Of a stretch of DNA of 64,000 nucleotides, positions 45,786-57,906 are shown piece by piece. Numbering within the stretch: position 1 is the first letter of the stretch; each line of letters opens with the position of its first letter. The stretch lies in assembly GCF_013334205.1 (NCBI RefSeq), contig NZ_CP054424.1, positions 2,376,001 to 2,440,000 on the forward strand, written 5' to 3'. The DNA comes from Rhodoferax sp. BAB1 (lineage in GTDB: Bacteria > Pseudomonadota > Gammaproteobacteria > Burkholderiales > Burkholderiaceae_C). The notes beneath the pieces are model-generated. The model did not search any database, was not told where the DNA came from, and saw only the letters and a list, made by a program, of their open reading frames with translations. A program made the translations under genes and the position numbers.

Positions 45786-46544
45786 CTGAAGCTCCCCCGG
45801 AGAATTCACGGCACGCCCGGTGCCGCAAGTAATGTCAAAGCGGCAATACCATGACCATGTGGTGTCATCTAGTATCTGCATTGAACTTTTCGGCAAGCCA
45901 CCCAATCTCAGTTCAAGAAATACTTGTGTAATTCATTAAATTAGTGTGGTTCACAGTCGTGGCGGGAATGTCAGTTCAAGGCTGATTGCTGCCACTTAGG
46001 TTCGACGGCAGAGTCCATGGGCGCCAACGCAAGCGGTCGCTTACCGGTCAGGATCTCAAGCGACCGATCGATTACCTGTACCGGTCGTTCGGCACTGTAG
46101 CGAAGTGCAAAGTTCTGGAATGGCCCTTTGCGTCACGGACGAAACGGTGTTCTGGACCATGGGCAGGCCTTCTTCAAGCGCCAGCAGGGAGGGCGAATCA
46201 CTTCTTTTGGTCCTTCAGTGTCCGTAGCGCAATACCCGCCACCCGGGTTCCCTGTGCTCCTCAAAGTGCGTGATAGACGGGCAATAGTTCACTTTGACCT
46301 GATGCTGTTGCAACATTCTGATCATTGCTCTCGCCGCAAATAAAGAAGGAAACAAGGGGTGGCCGTTGGATCGCAATGCCCAAGACATCGCGCGCGGTAT
46401 GTGGATATGCGGCAGTCTTGACGTCGCCATCCGCATCCGGCATTTGTGCAGGTGAGCCTGCCGTGAATCTCGTTGAAGGTGCGTGGATAAACTTTGAGCG
46501 CCGACTGGCGAGCTGCTCAGGCCTGACCTCGATGGAGTCACATT
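45786..46544. other. Gene-poor decayed stretch
   Basis: I see no supportable gene in these 759 bp. Open frames here have no family resemblance and no ribosome sites. One copy of a 26-bp dispersed repeat is at 45964-45989, followed by GC-rich palindromic fragments such as CGATCGATTACCTGTACCGGTCG. The stretch looks like remains of mobile or repeat sequences between the HipB-like gene and the 3' end of the LysR gene. Confidence 0.6.
45964..45989 (+). repeat. Dispersed 26-bp repeat, copy 1
   Basis: GGGAATGTCAGTTCAAGGCT followed by GATTGC. Nearly identical copies are at 58365-58390 (plus) and 59023-59049 (minus), all inside the accessory zone. Confidence 0.7.
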
Positions 46545-47474
46545 TCATGGCGCCGTGTTCTCGGCGCCAAATACCTGGTCGACAAATGCCAGCAGCGAAG
46601 CGGTGGGCTGTTTGTCGCGATGCACGACCAGGTGAGATTGTCGGAGCTGCCGCGGCAAGGTCGTGGAGATGCGGCACAGGCGGCCGGCCTCCAAAGCGTC
46701 GCTCACGACCCACGACGAAAGGCAGGCCACCCCCATACCCGCCTCGGCCGCATGTTTGATCGCCTCCGAACTTCCCAGCTCGATGCTTCGACGGTAGGAG
46801 CGCAAGTGGGGCAGCAGACTTTGGTCGGTGGCCTCGCGCGTTCCCGAGCCCGACTCACGCAACAGCCAGACCCCTTCACGCAGTGTCCGCATTGGCACCC
46901 GCTCGCCGGCCAGGCTCATTCGTGCCCACGCGCTGTCAGGCGATGTAACGACCACCATCTCGTCCTGGTGCCATGGCGTGACGGCCAGCGCCGCTTGGTG
47001 GCAAGGCCCTTCGATCAGGCCCACGTCCAGTTCAAACGCAGCGACCGCGTCACAGATGGCCGCCGTGTTTCCGATCACGACCTTTGAGCGCCAGGCACTG
47101 GCATGGCCCGGTTGCGCTGCGACAAAACGGGCCAGCAGCCTGGGCAGCACATAGTTGCCGATGGTGGTGCTGGCGCCGATGCGCAGCGACTGCGCCTGGG
47201 CGCTGCCATCGCGGGACATCAGCTCGATGCCGGCGGCACCGTCCAGCAGCGCCAGGGCCCGCGGCAGTAACGCACGGCCGTTGTCGTTGAGCAGCAGGCG
47301 CTTGCCCGCGCGGTCGAACAGGCGCAGCGACAGCAGCCGCTCAAGTTCATTCACGGCCGAGCTGGTGGCCGACTGCGACAGCGCAATCTCGGCGCTGGCT
47401 GCCGTGGTAGTGCCGCTGCGCGCAACCGCCACGAAGATCTGCAGCTGTCGCAGCGTGAGGCGAAGGGTATTCAT
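46545..47474 (-). CDS. LysR-family regulator (YeiE/CysB-like)
   Basis: This 309-residue protein has a LysR helix-turn-helix (about residues 1-60: LRQLQIFVAVARSGTTTAASAEIALSQSATSSAVNELERLL) and an effector domain with the periplasmic-binding-protein fold. It is divergent from a YeiH-type exporter; in enterobacteria the LysR protein YeiE adjoins and controls yeiH and is linked to sulfite. Here the downstream cluster also has a sulfite dehydrogenase, so sulfite or a related sulfur oxyanion is the likely effector. This is inference from context. Confidence 0.85.
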   Translation of the reverse strand: MNTLRLTLRQLQIFVAVARSGTTTAASAEIALSQSATSSAVNELERLLSLRLFDRAGKRLLLNDNGRALLPRALALLDGAAGIELMSRDGSAQAQSLRIGASTTIGNYVLPRLLARFVAAQPGHASAWRSKVVIGNTAAICDAVAAFELDVGLIEGPCHQAALAVTPWHQDEMVVVTSPDSAWARMSLAGERVPMRTLREGVWLLRESGSGTREATDQSLLPHLRSYRRSIELGSSEAIKHAAEAGMGVACLSSWVVSDALEAGRLCRISTTLPRQLRQSHLVVHRDKQPTASLLAFVDQVFGAENTAP

Positions 47475-47498
47475 GGCGGATTCGTTTGCAAAGCGATT

Positions 47499-47537
47499 AG
47501 ATGGGTACATCTTAGCGATACAACCCGTTTGACGGGT
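47499..47537. promoter_or_regulatory. Candidate LysR operators in the yeiE/yeiH-like gap
   Basis: Two dyads lie between the divergent genes: AGATG-GGTA-CATCT (47499-47512) and ACCCGT-TTG-ACGGGT (47523-47537). The first fits the T-N11-A pattern. Their centres are about 25 bp apart, a normal distance for regulatory and activation sites of a LysR protein. Confidence 0.5.
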
Positions 47538-47591
47538 CATCCATGAAGCCGGAAGCTTTGTCCTCACGAACTTCAACCGGAGGCAAGCAGC

Positions 47592-48698
47592 ATGACCATC
47601 AACGTACTTCCTGAGCCACGCACATTGGCCTCTGCATCGGCTTTCGCACGCATGCTCCCCGGCCTGGCCCTGAGCGGCGCCTTGGCTGCCACCGGTATCG
47701 CGCTGGGCCGCATCGCCTGGCTGCAGGACCATGGCTTCAGTGCGCTGACGCTGGCCATCGTGCTGGGCATGATCGTGGGCAACACGGTTTACCCGTGGGC
47801 CCCGCGCTTGGCGGTAGCCAGCGGCGCCGGCGTCAACTTCTCCAAGCAGAACCTGCTTCGCCTGGGCGTGGTGCTGTACGGCCTGCGGCTCACCGTGCAG
47901 GACATTGACCATGTCGGCATCGCTGGTGTCGCCATCGACGCGATGATATTGGGTTCGACCTTCGCACTGGCCTGCCTCATCGGCACGCGCTGGCTGGGCC
48001 TGGAGCGCAAGACGGCGATGCTGATCGGCGCTGGCAGTGCCATCTGCGGCGCTGCTGCGGTGATGGCCGCCGAGCCGGTGGTCAAGGCGCGCGCCGAGCA
48101 GGTCACGGTGGCGGTGGCCACGGTGGTGGTGTTCGGCACGCTGGCGATCTTCCTGTACCCGGCGCTGTTCGAGCTGAACCGGCACTGGGCGCTGATCCCC
48201 GGCGGCGCCAACGGGTTCGGCATCTACGTCGGATCGACCATCCACGAGGTGGCCCAGGTGGTGGCCGCAGCACGTTCGGTGGGCCCGGACGCAGCCAACT
48301 CGGCCGTCATCGCGAAGATGGTTCGAGTAATGATGCTGGCGCCGTTCCTGGTGATGCTGTCGGCTTGGCTGGCGCGCGACAGCACCCTGCAAGCCCTAGT
48401 GGAGGCAGAGCATGCTCACGCCAAGGGTCAACTCGCTGTGCCCTGGTTCGCCTTCGGCTTCGTCGCGGTCGTGTTGCTCAATTCGCTGCAATGGCTGCCG
48501 GCGTCGGTGGTGGCAGTGACGACCGAGATTGACACCGCGCTGCTGGCGATGGCGATGGCTGCGCTCGGCCTGGCCACGCACATCGGCGCCATTCGCAAGG
48601 CCGGGGCCAAGCCGCTGCTGCTGGCGTTGATCTTGTTCGGCTGGCTCATCGTCGGAGGCGCGCTCATCAACCGCTGGGTGCCGGCCCTGCTGGGCTGA
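47592..48698 (+). CDS. YeiH-type putative sulfate/sulfite exporter (UPF0324)
   Basis: This 368-residue membrane protein has about ten hydrophobic segments and family blocks (LGIVLGMIVGNT-type region, LRLGVVLYGLRLTVQDI, GAGSAICGAAAVMAAEPVV, ANGFGIYVGSTIHEVAQVVAA). Annotated relatives are called sulfate exporters. A GGAGG ribosome site lies 9 bp before the ATG. It is divergent from the LysR gene, and with SorAB below makes an efflux-plus-oxidation pair for sulfite. Confidence 0.88.
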   Translation: MTINVLPEPRTLASASAFARMLPGLALSGALAATGIALGRIAWLQDHGFSALTLAIVLGMIVGNTVYPWAPRLAVASGAGVNFSKQNLLRLGVVLYGLRLTVQDIDHVGIAGVAIDAMILGSTFALACLIGTRWLGLERKTAMLIGAGSAICGAAAVMAAEPVVKARAEQVTVAVATVVVFGTLAIFLYPALFELNRHWALIPGGANGFGIYVGSTIHEVAQVVAAARSVGPDAANSAVIAKMVRVMMLAPFLVMLSAWLARDSTLQALVEAEHAHAKGQLAVPWFAFGFVAVVLLNSLQWLPASVVAVTTEIDTALLAMAMAALGLATHIGAIRKAGAKPLLLALILFGWLIVGGALINRWVPALLG

Positions 48699-48750
48699 AG
48701 CCTCGAATTCACGGCCCAGGGCCCTGACCCTAAATTTCTTTGCACGCTCT

Positions 48751-48780
48751 GGAATAGACCGCATGCCGACGCCGTCTGCT
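48751..48780 (+). promoter_or_regulatory. Candidate ECF promoter C (GGAAT-N19-TCT)
   Basis: GGAAT at 48751-48755 and GCCGTCTG with TCT at 48775-48777, about 80 bp before the NTF2-like gene that leads into sigma/anti-sigma pair 1. The TCT is placed at the same distance as in sites 51243 and 53147 below. Confidence 0.5.
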
Positions 48781-48859
48781 CTTTTGTCGGGACCTATCTG
48801 ACCCTTCGTCCCGCACTCACCCCCCTTCACTTCACACCAACCCTTCATCGGAGCCCACA

Positions 48860-49291
48860 ATGTTCAAGACTTTCGCTTTCGCCGCCACCGCCCTGACGCT
48901 CGCCTCCGGCAGCGCCTTCGCCGCCCCCAGCGACGACGCCCGCACGCACTTCCAGGCCATCGCCTCGGGCGACACCCAGATCGTCATGCGTGCCTATGCC
49001 GACCAGGCCCAGCTGAACTGGGTAGGCGGCCCACTCGACGGCACCTATGCCACCACCGATGCCATTCGCGGCACCTGGGAGAAGTTCGGCAAGGCCGTCG
49101 GCCCACTGAAGCTCACAGTCGGCCAGATTGAAGAATCGGCCAACCCCAAGGGCGCCACCGTCTCGGCCAACGTCGTCTTCGAAGGCAAGATGCCCATCAA
49201 GGTGCGCTACGTGCTGACGTTCCGTGAAGGCAAGATCGTCAGTGAAACCTGGCAGATCGACCCCAAGCTGGCGGTGGCTGCGGCTTACTGA
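48860..49291 (+). CDS. Secreted NTF2-like protein
   Basis: This 143-residue protein has a signal peptide (MFKTFAFAATALTLASGSAFA) and an NTF2/SnoaL-type cone fold (DDARTHFQAIASGDTQIVMRAYAD ... IRGTWEKFGKA ... YVLTFREGKIVSETWQID). Enzymatic or ligand-binding roles are known for the fold, but none can be assigned here. First gene after the candidate ECF promoter; a COG4315 gene follows 48 bp later and then the ECF sigma gene. Confidence 0.8.
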   Translation: MFKTFAFAATALTLASGSAFAAPSDDARTHFQAIASGDTQIVMRAYADQAQLNWVGGPLDGTYATTDAIRGTWEKFGKAVGPLKLTVGQIEESANPKGATVSANVVFEGKMPIKVRYVLTFREGKIVSETWQIDPKLAVAAAY

Positions 49292-49339
49292 ACGGCACGC
49301 AGCGTGGCTACTCTCCACCAGACCCCAAAGGACAACCCC

Positions 49340-49729
49340 ATGAAGCACCTTTCGACTCTGGCCGCGCTGCTGATCACAGCGGCTTCCTTCGCGGCACCAC
49401 TCACCGGCGCTATGGCTGCCGACGCGCCGGCCAAGCTCGCCAACGGCGCGCTGGTCGACGCCAAGGGCATGACGCTCTACACCTTCGACAAGGACGTGGC
49501 AGGCAGCGGCAAGAGCACCTGCAACGGCGGCTGCGCCGCGCTGTGGCCGCCCGCGATGGCCGCCGCCAGCGACCAACCCGCCGGTGCATACACGATCGTC
49601 ATGCGCGACGACGGTGCGCGCCAGTGGGCCTACAAGGGCAAGCCGGTCTACACCTACCAGGCCGACCAGAAGCCCGGCGACCGCGCCGGCGACAACTTCA
49701 AAGACGTCTGGCACATCATCAAGGAATGA
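49340..49729 (+). CDS. Secreted COG4315-family protein (tandem YxFxxD repeats)
   Basis: The 129-residue protein has signal peptide KHLSTLAALLITAASFAAPLTGAMA and the hallmark repeats TLYTFDKDVAGSGKSTCNGGCAALWPP and PVYTYQADQKPGDRAGD with a Cys pair. Family members are common in sigma-factor-linked stress loci and are of unknown function; copper or oxidant binding has been suggested. Directly upstream of ECF sigma factor 1, 46 bp. Confidence 0.85.
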   Translation: MKHLSTLAALLITAASFAAPLTGAMAADAPAKLANGALVDAKGMTLYTFDKDVAGSGKSTCNGGCAALWPPAMAAASDQPAGAYTIVMRDDGARQWAYKGKPVYTYQADQKPGDRAGDNFKDVWHIIKE

Positions 49730-49775
49730 CATTTGCTGTAGACTTCCGTCCAGTCCCTCAGGCCACGACCCCCCG

Positions 49776-50279
49776 ATGCAAGACGACGCAAGCCTGCTGA
49801 GCTGGGTGCCGCGCCTGCGCCGCTATTCGCGCGCGCTGGTGAACAACCGTGACGACGCCGACGATCTGGTGCAGGACACGCTGGAGCGGGCCTGGGCCAA
49901 GTCGAACCTGTGGGGCGGCGTGGCCGACATGCGCGCCTGGCTCTTCAGCATCATGCACAACCTGCACGTCGATGGCGTGCGCCGTCCCAGGCTGCACACC
50001 GTGACCATGGACGACGACACGCCCGAAGTGCCGGTGGCGCCGACACAAACCGACAGGCTGGCTGTACTGGATCTGCAGGCTGCACTGGACTTGCTGCCCG
50101 TCGAGCAGAAGGAAGTGCTTCTTCTGGTGACGCTGGAAGACATGGCCTATGCCGATGTGGCGCAGGCCCTGGGTATCCCCATCGGCACCGTGATGTCGCG
50201 CCTGTCGCGAGGCCGTGAGCGCCTGCGCGGCCTGATGGAAGGCCGCGCAGAACCGGTGCGGCTGAAAGTCGTCAAATGA
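49776..50279 (+). CDS. ECF sigma factor 1
   Basis: The 167-residue sigma factor has region 2 (RRYSRALVNNRDDADDLVQDTLERAWAKS ... ADMRAWLFSIMHNLHVDGVRR) and region 4 (LPVEQKEVLLLVTLEDMAYADVAQALGIPIGTVMSRLSRGRERL). The anti-sigma gene follows after 19 bp. It is the first of two different sigma/anti-sigma pairs in 5 kb. Which of the three candidate promoters it reads is not knowable from sequence alone. Confidence 0.93.
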   Translation: MQDDASLLSWVPRLRRYSRALVNNRDDADDLVQDTLERAWAKSNLWGGVADMRAWLFSIMHNLHVDGVRRPRLHTVTMDDDTPEVPVAPTQTDRLAVLDLQAALDLLPVEQKEVLLLVTLEDMAYADVAQALGIPIGTVMSRLSRGRERLRGLMEGRAEPVRLKVVK

Positions 50280-50298
50280 ATGTATTGCGAATCAACCC

Positions 50299-51198
50299 AT
50301 GAATACCGACCGTCCGCCACCGTCCATTCCCCCGGTCACCGAGGCCGACCTGCATGCGTTCGTTGATGGCCGCCTGCCCGCTGAGCGCCAGGTCGAGATC
50401 GCCGCTTATCTGGCCGCACGCCCTGAAGACGCGCAGCGCCTGGAGGCCTACCGGGCGCAGAAGCGCGAACTGCACGCCTTGTTCGATCCCGTGCTGGATG
50501 AACAGCCGCCGCAGCGCCTGCTGAAATCGGCGCGCCCGCGCGCCGTGCCGCAGACGCCTTGGTACCTCCAGCGCCTGGCCGCTGGGATCGCCATCGCCGT
50601 CATCAGCGGCGCGACTGGCTGGGGCTTGCGGGGCGGCCTGCCCGCGGGGGGCGACGATGCCGGCCGCATGGCCGCCGCGGCACCCGCCGAGCGCGGCCTG
50701 ACGCTGGCGTCAGCGGGCGGCTTCGCGCAGCGCGCGGCGGTGGCTCACGCGGTATACAGTCCCGACGCGCGCCGCCCGGTCGAGGTGGACGCGGCGCACG
50801 AGGACCAGTTGGTGGCATGGCTGTCCAAGCGCATGGGCGCGCCGATGAAGCCGCCGCACCTGCAGGCCCAGGGCTACACGCTGGAAGGCGGGCGCCTGTT
50901 GCCGGGTGGCCAGGGGCCGGTTGCGCAGTTCATGTACCGCAACGAGCTCGGCAGCAAGCTGACGCTGTACGTGTCCAACGATGTCGCCGACGTGGGCAGT
51001 GCCGCGAGGCCGGACAAGGCACTGCAGGCCGGCGTGAAGAACACAGACACGGCCTTCCGCTTCGCACGCGAAGGTGCGGTCAATGTCTTCTACTGGGTCG
51101 ACGGTCCCTTCGGCTACGCCCTGTCGTCCGACGCCGACCGCAGCGTGCTGGCGCAGGTGTCGGCCGAGGTCTATCGGCAACTTGGCACCCCGCGCTGA
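50299..51198 (+). CDS. Membrane anti-sigma factor for ECF 1
   Basis: This 299-residue protein has a cytoplasmic anti-sigma domain (about residues 14-70, TEADLHAFVDGRLPAERQVEIAAYLAARPEDAQRLE), one membrane helix (about 93-113) and a 180-residue periplasmic sensor ending YRQLGTPR. It has no ZAS zinc motif (HxxxCxxC). Spacing and order (sigma then anti-sigma) support the assignment. Periplasmic stress such as sulfite or oxidant would release the sigma factor. Confidence 0.88.
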   Translation: MNTDRPPPSIPPVTEADLHAFVDGRLPAERQVEIAAYLAARPEDAQRLEAYRAQKRELHALFDPVLDEQPPQRLLKSARPRAVPQTPWYLQRLAAGIAIAVISGATGWGLRGGLPAGGDDAGRMAAAAPAERGLTLASAGGFAQRAAVAHAVYSPDARRPVEVDAAHEDQLVAWLSKRMGAPMKPPHLQAQGYTLEGGRLLPGGQGPVAQFMYRNELGSKLTLYVSNDVADVGSAARPDKALQAGVKNTDTAFRFAREGAVNVFYWVDGPFGYALSSDADRSVLAQVSAEVYRQLGTPR

Positions 51199-51242
51199 AG
51201 GCCAGGGCGGCGTCGGCGCGACGCGCTGTCGGCTCGCGCCAG

Positions 51243-51272
51243 GGAATGAAACGGCCTGAGCCGCGCTCTTGA
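51243..51272 (+). promoter_or_regulatory. Candidate ECF promoter A (GGAATGAA ... GCGCTCTTGA)
   Basis: GGAATGAA at 51243-51250, then GCGCTCTTGA with TCT at 51267-51269, 90 bp before the beta-propeller gene. Both blocks and the spacing are the same as at 53147-53176, and the preceding GCGCCA is shared too, so both are probably read by one ECF sigma. Confidence 0.6.
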
Positions 51273-51360
51273 CCTGAAGCAAGCGCTGGGCAGTGGTTCA
51301 TCGGCGGCTGCCGGCCCACGACCCAAGCGATCACTCTCCACACCAACTCAGAAAGCAAAC

Positions 51361-52755
51361 ATGACCACCCAACGCCGCGACATTCTCAAGTACACCCTGG
51401 CCGCCGCGGCAGCCAGCGCGCTGCCCGCAGCACATGCCCAGGCCCCGTCCGGCGCTTCAGCGGGAGCCGCAGCGACCGGCATCGACCCGCGCGATCGCGT
51501 CTTCATCACCAATGAAGACTCCAACACGCTGGTGGTCATCGACCCGAAGACCAACACCGTCGAGTCGACGATCAACCTGACCAGCTTTGACGAAGACCCT
51601 CGTCCCCCGTTTCGCTTTGTGACGGCCGGCGTGGCGCCAACGCACGCGGCGATGGTCCACAAGCCGCTGTACCACGGCTGTATCGATGCGCACGGCGCGG
51701 TGCCGTCGCCCGATGGCCGGTTGCTGGCCACCAGCGGGCGCGGCTCCAGCAACATTTATCTGATCGACGCCGAGCAGCGCCGCGTCATCGGCAACACACC
51801 CAACCCTGCGTCTGGGCCCACCACCAACCCCGAGCGCCTGAGTAGTGGCCTGCTGCTGGGCCGCGAACCGCACGAGCCCACTTTCACGCGCAACGGCCGC
51901 GAGCTGTGGGTCACGCTGCGCGGTGAAGACCGCATTGCCATCGTCGGCGTCGATCGTGCCGTTCGCCAGCTCAAGGGGGCCGACAGCCCGGGCTCCAGCG
52001 CGGTTCGCCAATACCTGCCCACGCTGAGCGGCCCGGCGCAGGTGTGGTTCAACCGTGAGGGTACGTTGGCCTTTGTGGCCAGCCAGAAGGTGTCGAAGAT
52101 CGACGTGTTCCGCGTCAACCCCGGCGCGGATGGCCACAGCCAACCGCAGCGGCTGACCACGCTGGACATCAGCGCACAGGACAAACCCGGCTTCACGCCC
52201 TTCATGAAGACCACACCCGACGGTGCCGAGGTGTGGTTCTCGCACAAGCTGGCTGATGCGGTGTCTTGCCGCTCGACGCAGGGTGGCTTCGACCTGATCG
52301 ACACCGTGCCGCTGGGCATGGGCGCGCGGCCCAACCACGTTGAGTTCGTGCGCAATGCGCGCGGCAGCGTGGTCTATGCCAGCCTGGCGCGCATCGACGA
52401 TGGTGGCCCCGGCGGCGTGGCGTCGAGCCCGATCGCCATCATCGACCGCAGCGCTCCGGGCGGACAGCGCAAGGTGGTGGGCACCTTCTCCAGCCGTGGC
52501 CGCGAGTCGCACGGGTTGTGGACCAACCCCGAGAACACGCTGCTGTATGTGGCCCACGAACAGGACGAGCTGCCCGGCACGCCCAACGCGGGCCAGACCG
52601 TGTGCAGTGCATTTGATGTGAGCGACCCGCTGCGCCCGACCTTCATTGCGCAGATCCCCCTGGGCAATCTGACGCTGCCCTCTGGCGCGCTGCGCAACAA
52701 AAAGAGCATCAACCTCGTCTACGTGCGTGTGGGCGAGAAGGGCCAGACGGCATGA
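51361..52755 (+). CDS. Tat-exported YncE-like beta-propeller protein
   Basis: The 464-residue protein has a Tat-type signal (QRRDILKYTLAAAAASALPAAHA). Seven-bladed propeller repeats follow, with the YVTN/YncE blade pattern (VFITNEDSNTLVVIDPKTNTVESTI; PSPDGRLLATSGRGSSNIYLID). Cys appears only twice. The function is unknown; related proteins bind metals, DNA or carry enzyme cofactors. Its stop overlaps the DUF305 start (ATGA). Candidate ECF promoter A lies upstream. Confidence 0.85.
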   Translation: MTTQRRDILKYTLAAAAASALPAAHAQAPSGASAGAAATGIDPRDRVFITNEDSNTLVVIDPKTNTVESTINLTSFDEDPRPPFRFVTAGVAPTHAAMVHKPLYHGCIDAHGAVPSPDGRLLATSGRGSSNIYLIDAEQRRVIGNTPNPASGPTTNPERLSSGLLLGREPHEPTFTRNGRELWVTLRGEDRIAIVGVDRAVRQLKGADSPGSSAVRQYLPTLSGPAQVWFNREGTLAFVASQKVSKIDVFRVNPGADGHSQPQRLTTLDISAQDKPGFTPFMKTTPDGAEVWFSHKLADAVSCRSTQGGFDLIDTVPLGMGARPNHVEFVRNARGSVVYASLARIDDGGPGGVASSPIAIIDRSAPGGQRKVVGTFSSRGRESHGLWTNPENTLLYVAHEQDELPGTPNAGQTVCSAFDVSDPLRPTFIAQIPLGNLTLPSGALRNKKSINLVYVRVGEKGQTA

Positions 52756-53111
52756 GCGGCGCGCACACCAGCCACGGCGCCAGCGCCGCGCACACCAGCG
52801 CATTCCAGCGGGATATGGACGAATCGATGGCCCGCATGATGCAGGCCATGCACAGCCCGGGCTACGCAGGCCAGGCCGACCAGGACTTTCTGGCGATGAT
52901 GATTCCGCACCACGCCGGCGCTGTGGACATGGCGCGGCTGGTGTTGCAGCATGGGCGCGATCCTGTCACCCGGCAGTTGGCCGAGGAAATCATTGCCGGG
53001 CAGACGGTGGAGATCCAGAGCATGCAACGCCGACTGCACACCCTGCAGCAGCGCACAGCCAAAGGTGCGGAAGCGGAATTTCCGTCGCTGGGTGGGACGC
53101 GGGGGCCTTGA
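52752..53111 (+). CDS. DUF305 (CopM-like) protein
   Basis: The 119-residue helical protein has the DUF305 core DQDFLAMMIPHHAGAVDMARLVL and later GQTVEIQSM. The clustered His and Met residues (MMIPHH, MARMMQAMH) suggest binding of copper or other metal ions, as in CopM. There is no signal peptide; because its start is fused to the Tat protein's stop, it may act in the cytoplasm. Confidence 0.85.
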   Translation: MSGAHTSHGASAAHTSAFQRDMDESMARMMQAMHSPGYAGQADQDFLAMMIPHHAGAVDMARLVLQHGRDPVTRQLAEEIIAGQTVEIQSMQRRLHTLQQRTAKGAEAEFPSLGGTRGP

Positions 53112-53146
53112 TCGACAGCCCTAGGGAAAGTACCGATGAGCGCCAC

Positions 53147-53176
53147 GGAATGAACCAAGCCACGCAGCGCTCTTGA
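53147..53176 (+). promoter_or_regulatory. Candidate ECF promoter B, 10 bp from the ECF sigma 2 start
   Basis: GGAATGAA at 53147-53154 and GCGCTCTTGA at 53167-53176 with TCT at 53171-53173. Transcription would begin within a few bases of the ATG at 53182, giving a leaderless message. No Shine-Dalgarno is seen before that ATG, in agreement. Confidence 0.55.
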
Positions 53177-53181
53177 TCACC

Positions 53182-53715
53182 ATGCTGTTCCAGTCTGCCG
53201 AGTCCCGCTATAACCAATGGGTGCGTGAGCACTACCGTTTTTTGCTGCGCAGTGCGTGGGCGCTCACTGGTTCGCGCGCCATTGCCGAAGACGTGGTGCA
53301 AGACTGTTTTGCCAACGCCTGGAAGCACCGGGAGCAACTGCGCGACGCTGCGCTGGCACGGGCTTGGCTCTTTCAGATCATGCGCCGCGCCGCCTTTCGC
53401 CAGGCCGCACCCAGCATGCAGTCGCTGGACGATGAAGAGCAGCCCGAGCAAGCGGCGCCCGACGCGGGGCTGGACGACAAACTCGATGTCGTCAAGGCGC
53501 TCGCGCGCCTGGCGCCCATCCACCGCGAGGTGCTGGTGATGTTTTATTTCGACGACATGCCCACCGCCCAGATGGCCGAGGCGCTGGAGATCGCGCCCGG
53601 CACGGTGTTGTCGCGCCTAGCCCGTGCGCGCGACGCTTTGAAGCTGGCCATGGGGGTACCTGCGACACCCAAGGCCGATGTCAACGTTACCCCGTTTCGC
53701 AGGACCAAGACATGA
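53182..53715 (+). CDS. ECF sigma factor 2
   Basis: This 177-residue ECF sigma has region 2 (RYNQWVREHYRFLLRSAWALTGSRAIAEDVVQDCFANAWKHREQLRD) and region 4 (LAPIHREVLVMFYFDDMPTAQMAEALEIAPGTVLSRLARARDALKLAMG). The ATG at 53182 is preferred over an in-frame TTG at 53173, which would lie inside the candidate -10. The anti-sigma-like gene overlaps its stop (ATGA). Probably auto-regulated through promoter B. Confidence 0.93.
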   Translation: MLFQSAESRYNQWVREHYRFLLRSAWALTGSRAIAEDVVQDCFANAWKHREQLRDAALARAWLFQIMRRAAFRQAAPSMQSLDDEEQPEQAAPDAGLDDKLDVVKALARLAPIHREVLVMFYFDDMPTAQMAEALEIAPGTVLSRLARARDALKLAMGVPATPKADVNVTPFRRTKT

Positions 53716-54314
53716 GCCCCGATACCGACGCGCCTTTCCTGCCCGACAGCGAATTCGATTTGCGCGCGCGCGCCGAGTTGGCGATCGCCTTCGAGGCCAG
53801 CGACGCACCGGCACACCTGTACCGAAAGCCGCAGCCGCTGCTGGCGCGACGCGGCTTGCAGCGTTTTCTGGCTGCGCTTTTGCTGGCCGGTGGCACCAGC
53901 GGCGGGGTGCTAGCCGTGCGACCGCCAGCGATGGTGCGCGACGCGATCGACCACGAATACCACGAGCGCAGCTTGCGGGGCAGTTTCATGGAGCAGCGCC
54001 AGTTGCTCATGCACCTGGGCATGCGGGACGCCAACGTGGTGCCCGGGTTTCCCCAACTCATGCGGCCATGCGATATCGAAGGTCACCTCGCTTACCACCT
54101 CACCACGTTCTTCGAGAAGGGCGGCATGGTGACGGTGTATGCCTTTGACCAGCCTGTGGACCTGCGCGAGGCCAGCGGCTGGTGGAGCAACGTGCACTGG
54201 AAGGTGATCCGCTCGCGCGAGGGCAAGCCCTTGTTGCTGGTGGCCCAGAAAAAGAAGGCACTGGCGGTCGCGCAGACGGCACTGCAGGCACCTCCCGTGT
54301 CCGGGCCAGGCTGA
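53712..54314 (+). CDS. Membrane anti-sigma-like partner of ECF 2
   Basis: The 200-residue protein has an acidic N-terminal cytoplasmic segment of about 45 residues, one membrane helix (RFLAALLLAGGTSGGVLAV, about 51-69) and a periplasmic domain (HEYHERSLRGSFMEQRQLLMHLGMRDANVVPGFPQL). The last of these is a block I associate with uncharacterised anti-sigma-like proteins of this kind. It overlaps the sigma gene, the strongest evidence for pairing. It is unlike anti-sigma 1, so the two modules have different sensors. Confidence 0.78.
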   Translation: MSPDTDAPFLPDSEFDLRARAELAIAFEASDAPAHLYRKPQPLLARRGLQRFLAALLLAGGTSGGVLAVRPPAMVRDAIDHEYHERSLRGSFMEQRQLLMHLGMRDANVVPGFPQLMRPCDIEGHLAYHLTTFFEKGGMVTVYAFDQPVDLREASGWWSNVHWKVIRSREGKPLLLVAQKKKALAVAQTALQAPPVSGPG

Positions 54315-54399
54315 GGCACCGCGTCCCTGTCAACGAATCAACCGCTCACCCCTTTCACCCCAACCGGCGCACGACGCCCAACCACCGGAGACCCCAGAA

Positions 54400-55632
54400 A
54401 TGAACCAACAACCCACCTCGCTCCCCCGGCGCCACCTGCTGGCCGGCAGCGGCGCTGCTTTGGCTGCCGTTGGTCTGGCCAGCTTTGGCCGCACCGCAGC
54501 CGCTGCTGGTGAGACCGCGCCCGTCGCCGTGGCCGGTGCTGCCAAGCCTCTGCCAGCGTACGTGGGCTGGAAGGACCCGGCCAGCCTGATCGTGCACAGC
54601 AGCACCACCATTGAGACCAAGCGCAGTGTGTTCGGCACCAGCGTAATCACGCCGTCCGAGCAGCTCTACATCCGCAACAACCTGCCCGCGCCCGACGTCT
54701 CGATCCTGGGCAACCGCGATGCCTGGGAGATCAACATCGAGGGGGTGAAGAACCCGCGCAAACTCACGCTGGGCGACCTCAAGCGCATGGGCATCGAGAC
54801 CACGGCGATGGTGTTGCAATGCTCTGGCAACGGACGCGGCTACTTCCCCAACAAGCCCAGTGGAACGCCTTGGCAAGTGGGCGCAGCAGGCTGTGTGGTG
54901 TGGAGCGGTGTGCCGGTGCGCTGGGTGGTGGATGCCCTGGGCGGCGTGGAGGCCGGCATGGCCTACCTCACCGGCACAGGCGGCGAAAAACTCCCCGATG
55001 GACTGGACCCCAAGAGCGTGATCGTGGAACGCTCGGTGCCTGCTGCCGCACTCGCCGATGCCCTGCTGGCCTGGGAAATGAACGGTGTGCCGATTTCGCT
55101 GGCCCACGGCGGCCCACTGCGCTTGATCGTGCCGGGTTACACGGGCGTGAACAACATCAAGTACGTCAAACGCCTGGCCTTCACCGCTCAGGAGACCGAC
55201 GCACGCATCATGTCGCACGGCTACCGCATTTCACCGCCCGGCGCGAAGGGCGACCCGTCGCAGCCATCGGTGCAGGAAATGACGGTGAAGTCGTGGATCA
55301 ACGGTCCCGGCACGGACGGCGCCCCGCTTAAAGCGGGTGACACACAGATCCATGGCGTGGCGTTTGGCGGCATGAACGCGGTGGCCAAGGTCGAGGTTTC
55401 TCTGGACGGCGGAAAAACCTGGCAGCTCGCGCGCATGGTGGGGCCCGACCTCGGCCGCTTTGCGTGGCGGCAGTTTGTTTTTGCGGCACGCCTGCCGGCG
55501 GGCCAGTTCACCCTGGCGAGCCGAGCCACCGACACCGCAGGCAACGTGCAGCCCGAACAACGCATGGAAAACGCGGGCGGCTACAACAACACCAGCTGGG
55601 CCGACCACGCCGTGAAAGTGAGCGTGGCATGA
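54400..55632 (+). CDS. sorA: Sulfite dehydrogenase, molybdopterin subunit (SorA-like)
   Basis: This Tat-exported molybdenum enzyme has 410 residues. The twin-arginine signal is RRHLLAGSGAALAAVGLASFG. The sulfite-oxidase fold has the Mo-ligating Cys141 in LQCSGNGRG, and a C-terminal dimerisation domain (FGGMNAVAKVEVSLDGGKTWQLARM). It oxidises sulfite to sulfate in the periplasm and passes electrons to a cytochrome c. The next gene overlaps it by 4 bp and encodes that cytochrome, as for SorA/SorB of Starkeya. There is no haem domain in the protein itself. Confidence 0.9.
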   Translation: MNQQPTSLPRRHLLAGSGAALAAVGLASFGRTAAAAGETAPVAVAGAAKPLPAYVGWKDPASLIVHSSTTIETKRSVFGTSVITPSEQLYIRNNLPAPDVSILGNRDAWEINIEGVKNPRKLTLGDLKRMGIETTAMVLQCSGNGRGYFPNKPSGTPWQVGAAGCVVWSGVPVRWVVDALGGVEAGMAYLTGTGGEKLPDGLDPKSVIVERSVPAAALADALLAWEMNGVPISLAHGGPLRLIVPGYTGVNNIKYVKRLAFTAQETDARIMSHGYRISPPGAKGDPSQPSVQEMTVKSWINGPGTDGAPLKAGDTQIHGVAFGGMNAVAKVEVSLDGGKTWQLARMVGPDLGRFAWRQFVFAARLPAGQFTLASRATDTAGNVQPEQRMENAGGYNNTSWADHAVKVSVA

Positions 55633-55976
55633 AGCGCACAATCCAAAAACACGCGTTGGTCGCTGCCCTGTGGTCGTTGGCATTCACAGTGCTGCCCGTG
55701 CACGCCGCCGACGATGCCGCGCAACTTCAACAAGGCAAGGTGTTGTTCGGCCAAGGCGCGGTGCCTGCCTGCGCCCTGTGCCATGCGCTCAAGGACGCGG
55801 GAGCCGAAGGCGCCGTGGGCCCCAGCCTGGACGAGCTCAAGCCCGATGCCAAGCGCGTGGCCACCGCGCTGCGCAACGGGATTGGGCAGATGCCGTCCTA
55901 CAACGGCAAACTCAGTGATGCGCAAATTGCCGCCCTGGCGGCCTACGTGGCCAAGGCTTCGGGTGGATCAAAGTGA
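55629..55976 (+). CDS. sorB: Cytochrome c subunit of sulfite dehydrogenase (SorB-like)
   Basis: The 115-residue class I cytochrome c has signal peptide MKRTIQKHALVAALWSLAFTVLPVHA, haem site C48-A-L-C51-H52, and probable axial Met in GQMPSYNGKLSDAQIAALAAYV. It is translationally coupled to sorA. As SorB it would accept electrons from the Mo centre. A strong hairpin terminator follows about 75 bp after the stop. Confidence 0.9.
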   Translation: MKRTIQKHALVAALWSLAFTVLPVHAADDAAQLQQGKVLFGQGAVPACALCHALKDAGAEGAVGPSLDELKPDAKRVATALRNGIGQMPSYNGKLSDAQIAALAAYVAKASGGSK

Positions 55977-56050
55977 TGGCTGGTTGGCCACAGCGCTGCT
56001 GCGCCAACTGACAAAAAGGACGGGATCACCTGCAAACAGCGATCCCGACT

Positions 56051-56081
56051 GAGTGGCTGACCCAGGGCGGGTCAGCCACTC
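56051..56081 (+). terminator. Hairpin terminator after sorB
   Basis: A perfect 13-bp stem (GAGTGGCTGACCC, loop AGGGC, complement to 56081), 75 bp after sorB. There is no clean T-run, so it may end transcription only partly or protect the mRNA 3' end. Confidence 0.5.
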
Positions 56082-56085
56082 ACCA

Positions 56086-56301
56086 TCACTTGCCTGGTTT
56101 GATGTCGGGGACCACCATCCAGCCAGCCCCCATCATCACAACCGCCGGGAACTTCTCGCCGGCCTAAGTCTTGCCCAGCATGGCCTTGTGCTCGCGGTAA
56201 GCCATCAACGCTGGCGACACGCCCAGGTGATTGATCGCACCATGCTTGATGCTGCTGCAGTCTTGCTCGTCGAGCTTGCAGATCTCTGCACGCTGTTGTC
56301 A
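56086..56301 (-). pseudogene. Fragment of an unknown protein with one in-frame stop
   Basis: Read on the minus strand, the frame gives AEICKLDEQDCSSIKHGAIN, then HLGVSPALMAYREHKAMLGKT, then a TAG, then AGEKFPAVVMMGAGWMVVPDIKPGK and a stop at 56086. Amino-acid pattern and Cys positions look protein-like across the TAG, so it is a decayed C-terminal piece. The 5' part is missing. I do not recognise the family. The following 56302-56599 (298 bp) holds no gene that I can support. Confidence 0.45.
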
Positions 56302-56599
56302 ACTCTCTAGCAATGTCAACTACGCGCCTGAAACCTGTCTCTGCGCCTTACCACGATGCATGAATAGGAGTGATCGCAATCCGGCACGCCAAGGGCATGC
56401 ACGTTGAAAACTCGAACGGCAGCAACCGCTGCAATCTGGCCCTTGACCTGTGGGTTGTTGGGGTGCAGCAACTAAGGCAAATGAACACCAGAGGCCGTTA
56501 GCGCCGATGGCGCTCAACCAAGCTCGGAGCCAAAGTCTGTCGTTCCATGCCGCATTTGGAGAATATCCCCCTAGGCTGAAGATTGAAGGCCAGTTGTTG

Positions 56600-57409
56600 C
56601 TAGATCACGACCAGGTAGCTGGCCTGATACCCAGGATTCTCCAATTGAAGCGACTCGCGCCCTGAGAGCCTGCAGCGGGGACTCAGCGAATAGCCAGCCG
56701 GGTTCGAGACCACCCTGCATCGCCCCACCTGATAGTCGAAACTGTCATGAGCATGCCCATGGATCCAGAGATCCGTCCGATACATCAGCTCCGATAGGTC
56801 GGAGGCAAAAGCGGGTGTCAATGGATGGCCAACGTACTTGCGGTGCACGCTCAGGCGATGGGGTGCATGATGGCTGATCACCACCGTCTTGCCGATGAAC
56901 TCACGCCGTAGCTCGCCTTCCAGCCATGTACGGGATGCCAGGTGATCAGCCAGCATCAGGGCCGGCGTGATCCGCCCCGTGGAGGCCTCGGCTGACCGGG
57001 TGTGAATCTCAAAGAAGTCCTTCAGATAAGTCCCCGCCAACTCCATGGCGCTGGGTGCTGGACGCGCCCTATCGACGGCGAAGTCGGTCCAGAGGGTCGT
57101 CCCAAGAAAGCGGACACCGCCGATAACGCAGGCGTCGTTGTCCAGGACCTGGATGAGCGTGCCGGCAGTCGCCTCCCGCAAACTCGCCCGGACATCTTCC
57201 CAGGTCTGTCCATAGAACTCATGGTTTCCCGCGACATAGAGTACGGGGACAGGCCAGTTTCGGAAATGCCGGATGGCCTCAACCCCGGTATGGATGTCCC
57301 CTGCCAAGATCAGTAGCTCAGCGTCCGGGTGGGGGTCGACCAGGAGCTCTACCCTCAGATCCTCAGGCAGAAGTTCCAAATGCAGGTCAGAGGCGACTTG
57401 GATTCTCAA
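56600..57409 (-). CDS. Calcineurin-type metallophosphoesterase
   Basis: The 269-residue protein has the five motifs of the calcineurin-like family: D8xH10 (VASDLHLE), LILAGDIHTG, AGNHEFYG, SHHAPHR and HGHAHDSFD, which form a di-metal site. The substrate (phosphodiester, nucleotide or phosphoprotein) cannot be told. Flanks on both sides are decayed sequence; its own promoter must lie in the 266-bp gap 57410-57675, which holds no gene. Confidence 0.88.
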   Translation of the reverse strand: MRIQVASDLHLELLPEDLRVELLVDPHPDAELLILAGDIHTGVEAIRHFRNWPVPVLYVAGNHEFYGQTWEDVRASLREATAGTLIQVLDNDACVIGGVRFLGTTLWTDFAVDRARPAPSAMELAGTYLKDFFEIHTRSAEASTGRITPALMLADHLASRTWLEGELRREFIGKTVVISHHAPHRLSVHRKYVGHPLTPAFASDLSELMYRTDLWIHGHAHDSFDYQVGRCRVVSNPAGYSLSPRCRLSGRESLQLENPGYQASYLVVI

Positions 57410-57675
57410 GCGTGTTCAACCAATGTAAGGATTGGTACTCCAGCCCTATCTCCCAATATAAGAGCTTCATGCATGTGCCAGCTGCACTGTGCTTTCCGGG
57501 TTAACAAGGTCATTCTCACCTAAAGAGGGGCTTGATGCTCGACGTGTTCTTGCTCCGGAGCTCCGCCTCACCAATTCTGTAGTGCAGCCGAGGAGTGTGC
57601 ATTGTGTCGCACGCAGTAGCAAATGCCATCCTGCACTCTTTAAGATGGGGCACTCGATAGCACTCAGAGAATGAA

Positions 57676-57906
57676 ATGGCCAACTTTTCCAGCCAGCTTA
57701 AGGCAGAGATCTCCCGTATTGCCCGTAAAGAGATCCGCGCCGAAACCCAAGCCTTGAAGAAGGCATCAGCCCAGTACCGCACTGATATTGCGGCACTCAG
57801 GCGGCGTATTGCCGAGCAGGATCGCGTGATCGCCAGGCTGCGTAAAGGTAAGCCGCCTCTTGCAGTGGGGCTAAGTCATGTCTGCGGCCGTATCGCTCAT
57901 AGATGA
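57676..57906 (+). pseudogene. Truncated coiled-coil/HTH DNA-binding protein
   Basis: The first 60 residues (MANFSSQLKAEISRIARKEIRAETQALKKASAQYRTDIAALRRRIAEQDR) match a conserved family that has an N-terminal coiled coil and a C-terminal XRE-type helix-turn-helix, about 140 residues in all. Here the frame leaves the family after RLRKGK (about residue 58) and ends in unrelated sequence (VGLSHVCGRIAHR). So the DNA-binding half is lost. It is convergent with, and overlaps by 10 bp, the next gene. Confidence 0.75.

Follow-up and report, generated by a model that had tools for sequence, protein, structure and literature searches.

What kind of element is the sulfite locus of Rhodoferax sp. BAB1, where an exporter, a sulfite-oxidizing enzyme and two extracytoplasmic function (ECF) sigma factors with their anti-sigma factors (ASF) stand side by side, and how are its genes controlled? 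The window, meaning the whole stretch of 64,000 nucleotides analysed here (G000:C1:2376001-2440000), belongs to a 3.82 Mb genome in a single contig. The original prediction, made from the letters alone, placed a sulfite-response locus at 46545-55976, and its genes are all present in the order and over the span that it gave; curated models for SorT/SorU and YeiE/YeiH and two recurrent sigma modules bear out the link to sulfite. Those limits hold for the named genes, but the natural unit is wider, from 45,981 to 56,432, and it was overlooked that this block is a mobile unit. The locus is probably a cassette for sulfite defence, 10,452 bp long, that regulates itself through layered YeiE/ECF2/ECF1 control and moves horizontally, a reading built on gene content, transfer, fixed ends, promoter signatures, a gene overlap and a missing signal peptide, all of them observed directly.

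Gene calls combined the open reading frame (ORF) listing with profile scans (Pfam, NCBIfam) of the window proteins, giving the order yeiE-type LysR, yeiH, NTF2/SnoaL, Lipoprotein_15/COG4315, ECF1, ASF1, propeller, DUF305, ECF2, ASF2, sorT and sorU, all on the forward strand except the first. The molybdenum enzyme (54400..55632) is SorT, a periplasmic sulfite dehydrogenase (NCBIfam equivalog NF052247, 652.1 bits, cut-off 570), and its cytochrome c acceptor (55629..55976) is SorU (equivalog NF052248, 118.1 bits, cut-off 100). The Starkeya-type SorA equivalog was rejected by its score of 206.8 bits (cut-off 600), and the pair announced as SorAB is thereby SorTU. The top PDB match of the enzyme is the SorT entry 4pw3 (492 bits), with the Starkeya-type SorA entry 2blf at 156 bits; the best match of the cytochrome is 4pw9_B. 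The predicted sulfite exporter YeiH (47592..48698) scored 370.6 bits with TIGR00698 (cut-off 232.6). Regarding the divergent LysR regulator (46545..47465, reverse strand), its description as YeiE-like stands at the level of the PRK10837 subfamily (299.9 bits, cut-off 281), but the stricter YeiE equivalog model is not reached (337.8 bits, cut-off 480).

A SorT protein search of the named genomes returned 152 relatives, the best 80 of which were kept as loci, and the first 17 of these show 99-100% protein identity across several genera. When the window DNA was compared with the 80 loci, ten copies with more than 9 kb aligned were 97.9-100% identical, from Acidovorax (L004, L006), Hydrogenophaga (L008, L016), Curvibacter (L009), Limnohabitans (L018, L021), Hylemonella (L019) and metagenome-assembled genomes (MAGs) of Burkholderiales (L010) and Comamonadaceae (L020); by title, L006, L008, L018 and L021 come from isolates, and the remaining six are MAGs. 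Fragments shorter than these, at 99.0-99.8%, several of which stop at contig edges, occur in L003, L005, L007, L012, L013, L014 and L017, belonging to records of Polaromonas, Acidovorax NO-1, Hydrogenophaga, Polynucleobacter and Rhodoferax, and a variant at 91-92% is found in L011 and L015. Moreover, a different genus of the same family (G049) matches at 99.6% over 10,464 bp.

As a control, the window's copy of the housekeeping gene ppc was searched in the 18 copy-holding genomes, where 16 matched over at least 1.5 kb at 76-86%, the other two being Polynucleobacter (66% over 1.3 kb) and the MAG of L004 (39 bases). Compared with the 97.9-100% of the block, the cassette is therefore much more alike than the genomes that host it, and vertical inheritance of the block is ruled out by the ppc divergence. 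Common descent or strong conservation, instead of recent transfer, might be proposed for the near-identity, given how widely members of the SorT clade occur among Burkholderiales; however, the identity extends to non-coding DNA and stops abruptly, which, together with ppc in the same genomes, reduces this proposal to a negligible chance. The block is horizontally mobile and has passed nearly unchanged between bacteria of several genera that live in water and soil. The long copies are of type A; another set, type B, matches them at about 80% identity and is 93-100% identical among its own members, which belong to Aquabacterium, Rubrivivax, Pelomonas, Pseudorhodoferax, Methylibium, Rhizobacter, Thauera and others. 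Nine records matched in a plasmid search, including plasmid p1-T1 of Acidovorax sp. T1 (99.0% over 76% of the query, with IS1071 replacing the left side) and the plasmids of Methylibium sp. T29 and T29-B (83.0% over 81% of the query). The unit is uncommon yet widely spread: the protein database clusters of the window's ASF1 and ASF2 hold 200 and 171 member sequences, and in an even draw of the order propeller relatives at E<=1e-10 occur in 17 of 399 genomes, with at least 68% identity in five, the window's own counted.

Some copies differ in content. Plasmid pT29A of Methylibium sp. T29 (L102, type B) has extra genes between yeiH and the NTF2 gene, including a second, lactonase-like propeller and an MBL-fold hydrolase. 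For Polynucleobacter yangtzensis (L012), 2.1 kb around sorT-sorU alone matches, at 99.5% and with an identical right end, and an lp15-like gene (46%) lies just outside the matching part.

The unit also has fixed ends. The left one (45978..46015) reads AAG followed by GCTGATTGCTGCC, with the first conserved base at about 45,981, and the right one (56412..56432) terminates in GGCAGCAACCGCTGC; the identity stops abruptly at both, and the flanks on the left differ. Both ends are present in eight of nine type A copies tested, at a length of 10,450-10,453 bp and in seven different surroundings (L018 and L019 have theirs in common), while L010 misses the last bases on the right. Written for these copies together, the left end is AAG, the boundary, and [GA]CTGATTGCTGCC, the right end remaining as above. 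Among type B copies, three have the left end GGCTGATCGC and the right end GACCGCAACCGCTGC, the other tested copies diverging further out. Were the two ends joined, GGCAGCAA and TTGCTGCC would face each other across about 12 bp, as read by eye, and the junction predicted for joined ends is ...AACCGCTGC to ...CTGATTGC. The right end folds into a short hairpin, and the canonical integron attC boxes (RYYYAAC/GTTRRRY) were not seen on inspection by eye. No exact direct repeat of 3-12 bp was found at the ends of eight type A and three type B copies, a test that relies on the ends as set, as misplaced ends could hide a target duplication. No empty insertion site was found in relatives, and no Pfam family of a transposase or recombinase in the four leftover end ORFs of the unit, its other genes being assigned.

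The block could instead be a mere passenger of its neighbours, moved by IS1071/Tn3, by serine recombinase islands or by homologous island exchange, with ends that are chance stops of shared sequence. This is a serious contender, given somewhat less than even weight, as the flanks contain serine recombinases (L008, L021), a tyrosine integrase (L010) and an IS3-type transposase (L018), IS1071 cuts off the left side on p1-T1, and the outer ends differ among type B copies. Nevertheless, eight copies in seven surroundings have identical stop bases on both sides, and types A and B share end letters though only about 80% identical inside, both of which speak for a unit with ends of its own. A bolder proposal, unlikely as it now stands, is that the cassette represents an unrecognised class: a recombinase-less, site-specifically moved cassette of several kb whose ends, GGCAGCAA ... 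TTGCTGCC, would make an inverted repeat when joined, mobilised in trans and carrying a two-code sigma circuit and RseB-like sensors.

The cassette end was also considered as an abundant genomic repeat and rejected, the exact 12-mer CGCAACCGCTGC being near control level in 14 genomes. The looser motif GRCVGCAMYCGCTGC occurs 76 times against 34 in 15 genomes, with seven same-strand pairs within 25 kb against about one expected; ten of these 76 matches are ends of the cassettes themselves, in genomes picked as carriers, and three of the seven pairs include one, so that the excess is a lead rather than a finding. The distance between the two members of a pair ranges from a few kb to 23 kb, which looks as though they bounded other islands, and four of the seven are without the sulfite cassette. 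A second left-end-like sequence gave one match (L006) in 2.06 Mb, the reversed control giving none.

Inside the cassette, two classes of promoter-like signatures have the same -35 and spacing and different -10 letters. The first, P1 (GGAAT-N17-CGTC, 48751..48776, forward strand, as are the following two), lies upstream of NTF2-Lp15-ECF1-ASF1 and is kept in 10 of 13 ntf2 rows, the other three, from Oxalobacteraceae, reading CGT[AT]. The second, GGAAT-N17-GCTC, is found twice: as P2b (53147..53172) upstream of ecf2-asf2-sorTU, in 15 of 15 rows, which have 10 distinct spacers between them, and in every one of the 10 sorT clusters that bear ECF2, and as P2a (51243..51268) upstream of propeller-DUF305, in 10 of 11 rows with ECF2-linked propellers, L034 having one mismatch in the -35. 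An insertion now parts this signature from the propeller in L038 and L042, and it is absent before the propellers outside the ECF2 setting (L060, L063, L071, L072, L105, L106). Counts over the whole genome provide a weak control (GCTC type 11 versus 3, CGTC type 19 versus 12). The ECF2 gene (53182..53715; profile scan) most likely starts at ATG 53182 and not at TTG 53173, since the relative L022 has TAG there; its -10 stops 9 nucleotides before this ATG, thus an almost leaderless ecf2 message is expected. In 18 of 19 rows the sequence immediately upstream of sorT is free of either signature, the sole CGTC match (L063) seeming to lie inside the end of an upstream reading frame, and sorT is taken to be read through from ecf2-asf2.

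The shared GCTC signature would consequently place the propeller and DUF305, by their promoter, in the ECF2 set. We infer the assignment of ECF1 to the CGTC and of ECF2 to the GCTC signature; the two sigma factors form separate, fully supported clades in a tree with several long branches. The suggestion that two sensors feed one programme is not sustained by this distribution, as CGTC stands before the ECF1 operon only and GCTC before propeller-DUF305 and ecf2-asf2-sorTU. One programme with cross-talk, where both sigma factors use both signatures and the -10 letters just tune strength, is made conceivable by a -35 and a 17-bp spacing that both classes share, and it has parallels in the overlap of RpoE1 and RpoE4 in Sinorhizobium meliloti (PMC3511301) and in the activation of both sorA and duf305 promoters by Starkeya RpoE1 (PMC6527743). 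It is considered improbable, as the -10 letters stay with their operon despite diverged spacers, including L057, where the ECF1 module is on the opposite strand, and L022, L033 and L058, which have ECF2 and its GCTC signature without ECF1; moreover, the ECF1 and ECF2 clades are separate. The hypochlorite-responsive ECF16 (BcrS) was rejected as a model, its -35/-10 letters, as described (PMC8315932), being different.

Grouping the 80 loci at 97% DNA identity gave 47 sorT clusters, six of which (38 loci) have both sigma modules with propeller-DUF305. ECF2 with propeller-DUF305 is seen in one (L054, whose contig stops early), ECF2 alone in three, ECF1 with propeller-DUF305 and no ECF2 in four (L060, L063, L071, L072; Oxalobacteraceae by title), and neither module in 33. 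When the count is confined to the 34 clusters with 6 kb or more of upstream sequence, six have both modules, three ECF2 only, four ECF1 only and 21 neither (Fisher p 0.009, with rows not fully independent owing to shared transfer). The gene order recurs in relatives, which speaks against chance, and the conserved co-occurrence expected by the original prediction is in this way observed. The both-modules label requires at least three changes by starred branches on the SorT tree, not all of them independent because the unit moves. SorU follows SorT in 78 of 80 loci, and DUF305 lies within 1.5 kb of the propeller in all 15 propeller loci L086-L100. The metagenome titles of L055 (Thermoflexus) and L062 (Bordetella parapertussis) may not fit, because their SorT, the only protein compared, groups with Burkholderiales.

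It has also to be considered whether the ECF1 module answers another signal, such as tetrathionate, oxidants or other envelope stress, and merely travels with the sulfite genes. Starkeya RpoE1 answered tetrathionate but not thiosulfate (PMC6527743); within the phylum, 73 of 398 genomes have a relative of ASF1, and lp15-ECF-ASF is also found without SorT. However, ECF1 adjoins SorT in 10 of the 34 long-flank clusters, in two families and several arrangements, which makes a mere fellow traveller somewhat less likely than not. Of 28 ASF1-type loci in the phylum, 27 have an adjacent ECF and 14 a Lipoprotein_15 gene. One genome (G769) has propeller, DUF305, ECF and ASF consecutively and without SorT, its ECF sharing 45% identity with the window's. 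A second ASF1 relative (53% identity) lies in the genome of the window at G000:C1:227,789-228,571, remote from the cassette. In other Burkholderiales (L094, L096, L098), an ECF1-ASF1-DUF305-propeller group adjoins a distant protein of the sulfite-oxidase family (31-32%), which suggests a parallel system.

The ECF1 gene (49776..50279; sigma-70 r2/r4 and tree) is an RpoE1-like module, preceded by the genes of two secreted proteins, NTF2/SnoaL (48860..49291; PF12680, 33 bits, cut-off 27) and Lipoprotein_15/COG4315 (lp15, 49304..49729; PF03640). ASF1 (50299..51198), recognized by its position after ECF1, and ASF2 (53712..54314) belong to no Pfam family at E<=1, and a PDB sequence search with both and with the propeller gave no significant match. 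Homology between the two by sequence was rejected, with an hhalign probability of 1%. Meanwhile, their predicted periplasmic folds (AlphaFold2 for ASF1) resemble each other and the C-domain of RseB/MucB of the sigma-E/AlgU system, at moderate Z and with weak Foldseek matches, whereas by sequence no match to RseB/MucB was found; RseB/MucB rows account for six of the top seven in the fold comparison for ASF2 and seven of the top eight for ASF1. The partners described as unlike are thus unlike in sequence, but similar in predicted periplasmic fold. The RseB-like domain would comprise about residues 165-296 of ASF1 and residues 84-194 of ASF2, where Cys120 is invariant, and RseB-like sensing may be a property of both. 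RseB is a separate periplasmic protein, unlike the domain predicted here, which forms part of a membrane anti-sigma factor.

The beta-propeller (51361..52755; PF10282, TIGR02276) has the twin-arginine motif RRDILK in its N-terminus, with Pfam TAT_signal at 19.8 bits, below its cut-off of 22.7. DUF305 (52752..53111) matches PF03713 (63.4 bits, cut-off 27) and comes near the NCBIfam CopM model (86.3 bits, cut-off 90). Its start overlaps the propeller stop by 4 nucleotides (ATGA) in 12 of 12 ECF2-linked loci, all of which have a non-hydrophobic DUF305 N-terminus (highest 12-residue mean hydropathy 1.03); the reading frame of the window's DUF305 offers no start codon further upstream, and its N-terminus is not hydrophobic either. 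The DUF305 of L105 is signal-less too, with a 40-nucleotide gap to the propeller, and those of L106 and the four Oxalobacteraceae have signal-like N-termini (1.56-2.92), likewise that of G769. The simplest reading is that the signal-less DUF305 is probably exported folded, together with the propeller, by the twin-arginine translocation (Tat) pathway; alternatively, it is possibly cytoplasmic.

Taken together, a mechanism in three layers can be proposed. YeiE would sense cytoplasmic sulfite and raise the divergent exporter YeiH, by analogy with Salmonella, for which this is established (PMC12880088). A periplasmic signal, most likely sulfite, whether exported or external and acting directly or via a product, would then free ECF2 from ASF2, and free ECF2 would read GGAAT-N17-GCTC and express ecf2-asf2-sorT-sorU and the Tat-exported propeller, DUF305 hitch-hiking folded on it, with SorT oxidizing periplasmic sulfite and handing electrons to SorU. 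ECF1, held by ASF1, would read GGAAT-N17-CGTC and serve its own NTF2-Lp15-ECF1-ASF1 unit as a parallel RpoE1-like circuit, which may respond to a different level of sulfite or to some other sulfur species, as to tetrathionate in Starkeya. Both anti-sigma factors would sense through the RseB-C-like domain, and the cassette would move as one fixed-end unit among Comamonadaceae and related families. Sulfite as the signal is something we infer, and two published results weigh against this scheme: the Starkeya duf305 promoter responds strongly to RpoE1 and weakly to SigE (PMC6527743), and S. meliloti reporters were not induced by added sulfite (PMC3511301).

The known systems, compared on the parts of the papers available, share some of these traits. 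As described by Westerman et al. (2026, PMC12880088), Salmonella YeiE-YeiH binds sulfite and has been shown to confer sulfite resistance; LysR adjoins YeiH in the cassette too, but the Salmonella pair is described, in that portion, without ECF factors or a sulfite dehydrogenase. S. meliloti has rpoE4-SMc04050-sorT-SMc04048-azu2 and a separate rpoE1 operon (Bastiat et al. 2012, PMC3511301), so that an ECF-ASF pair likewise stands beside SorT and its cytochrome, and the rpoE1 operon, with a Lipoprotein_15 gene, ECF and COG5662-type ASF, compares with NTF2-Lp15-ECF1-ASF1. Its two operons, however, are apart on the chromosome with a common promoter sequence, whereas one mobile block with different -10s is seen here; the cassette adds YeiE/YeiH, propeller and DUF305, and lacks the azurin. 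Starkeya novella has sigE-sorAB and Snov_0990-0993, where DUF305, a YVTN propeller, an RpoE1-type ECF and an ASF are grouped as here and as in G769 (Tan et al. 2019, PMC6527743). This group can activate the promoter of the sulfite enzyme, SorAB there and SorTU here; its ECF1-like factor drives duf305 from a separate locus, and the propeller gene is raised on tetrathionate, while the propeller-DUF305 promoter of the cassette is of the ECF2 class. The remark that the role of propeller and DUF305 was undescribed is hence nearly right, with this Starkeya precedent to be added.

The same work gives the consensus GGAAT/CGTC and states, as preliminary, that both a close homologue of RpoE1 and the GGAAT/CGTC promoter are missing from its beta-proteobacterial group 3 (PMC6527743). 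By its position beside the sulfite enzyme, ECF2 would fit group 3. Lipoprotein_15, ECF and ASF in a row and the GGAAT/CGTC promoter agree with an RpoE1-type (ECF26) module, and by gene order and promoter lp15-ECF1-ASF1 argues against the group 3 statement for the species here; the earlier motif search possibly missed GGAAT/CGTC in beta-proteobacteria because the -10 differs.

Earlier publications already describe how ECF factors control sulfite dehydrogenases, regulation by two ECF factors, the lp15-ECF-ASF operon and the group of propeller, DUF305 and RpoE1. No description was found in the open-licence literature of the mobile cassette, the two-signature layout, the RseB-like domains or the pairing of a signal-less DUF305 with a Tat propeller. 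In the papers considered here, sulfite defence is treated as a chromosomal trait of each species, and in the cassette sensing, export and oxidation are joined in one unit that crossed genera recently, resembling a resistance cassette. In addition, two linked ECF circuits with equal -35 and spacing and different -10 letters offer a clean natural experiment, and propeller and DUF305 would be placed in the regulon of a sulfite-oxidase sigma factor.

Beyond the right end, the flank recurs elsewhere in the same genome and in the sister genome G799, there behind other sequence. It forms a unit with a phosphoesterase gene, found at 56,418-57,854 of the window, at G000:C1:597,369-598,806 (L180) and in G799 (L181) at 96-97%, and what directly precedes these units is different in each case, although it always finishes with some variant of the right terminus of the cassette. 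A near-palindrome, TTATGGAGAG[CT]TCTCCATAAGCAGCG, lies beyond the right end in L005 and L009, on chromosomal contigs, and in L101, on plasmid p1-T1.

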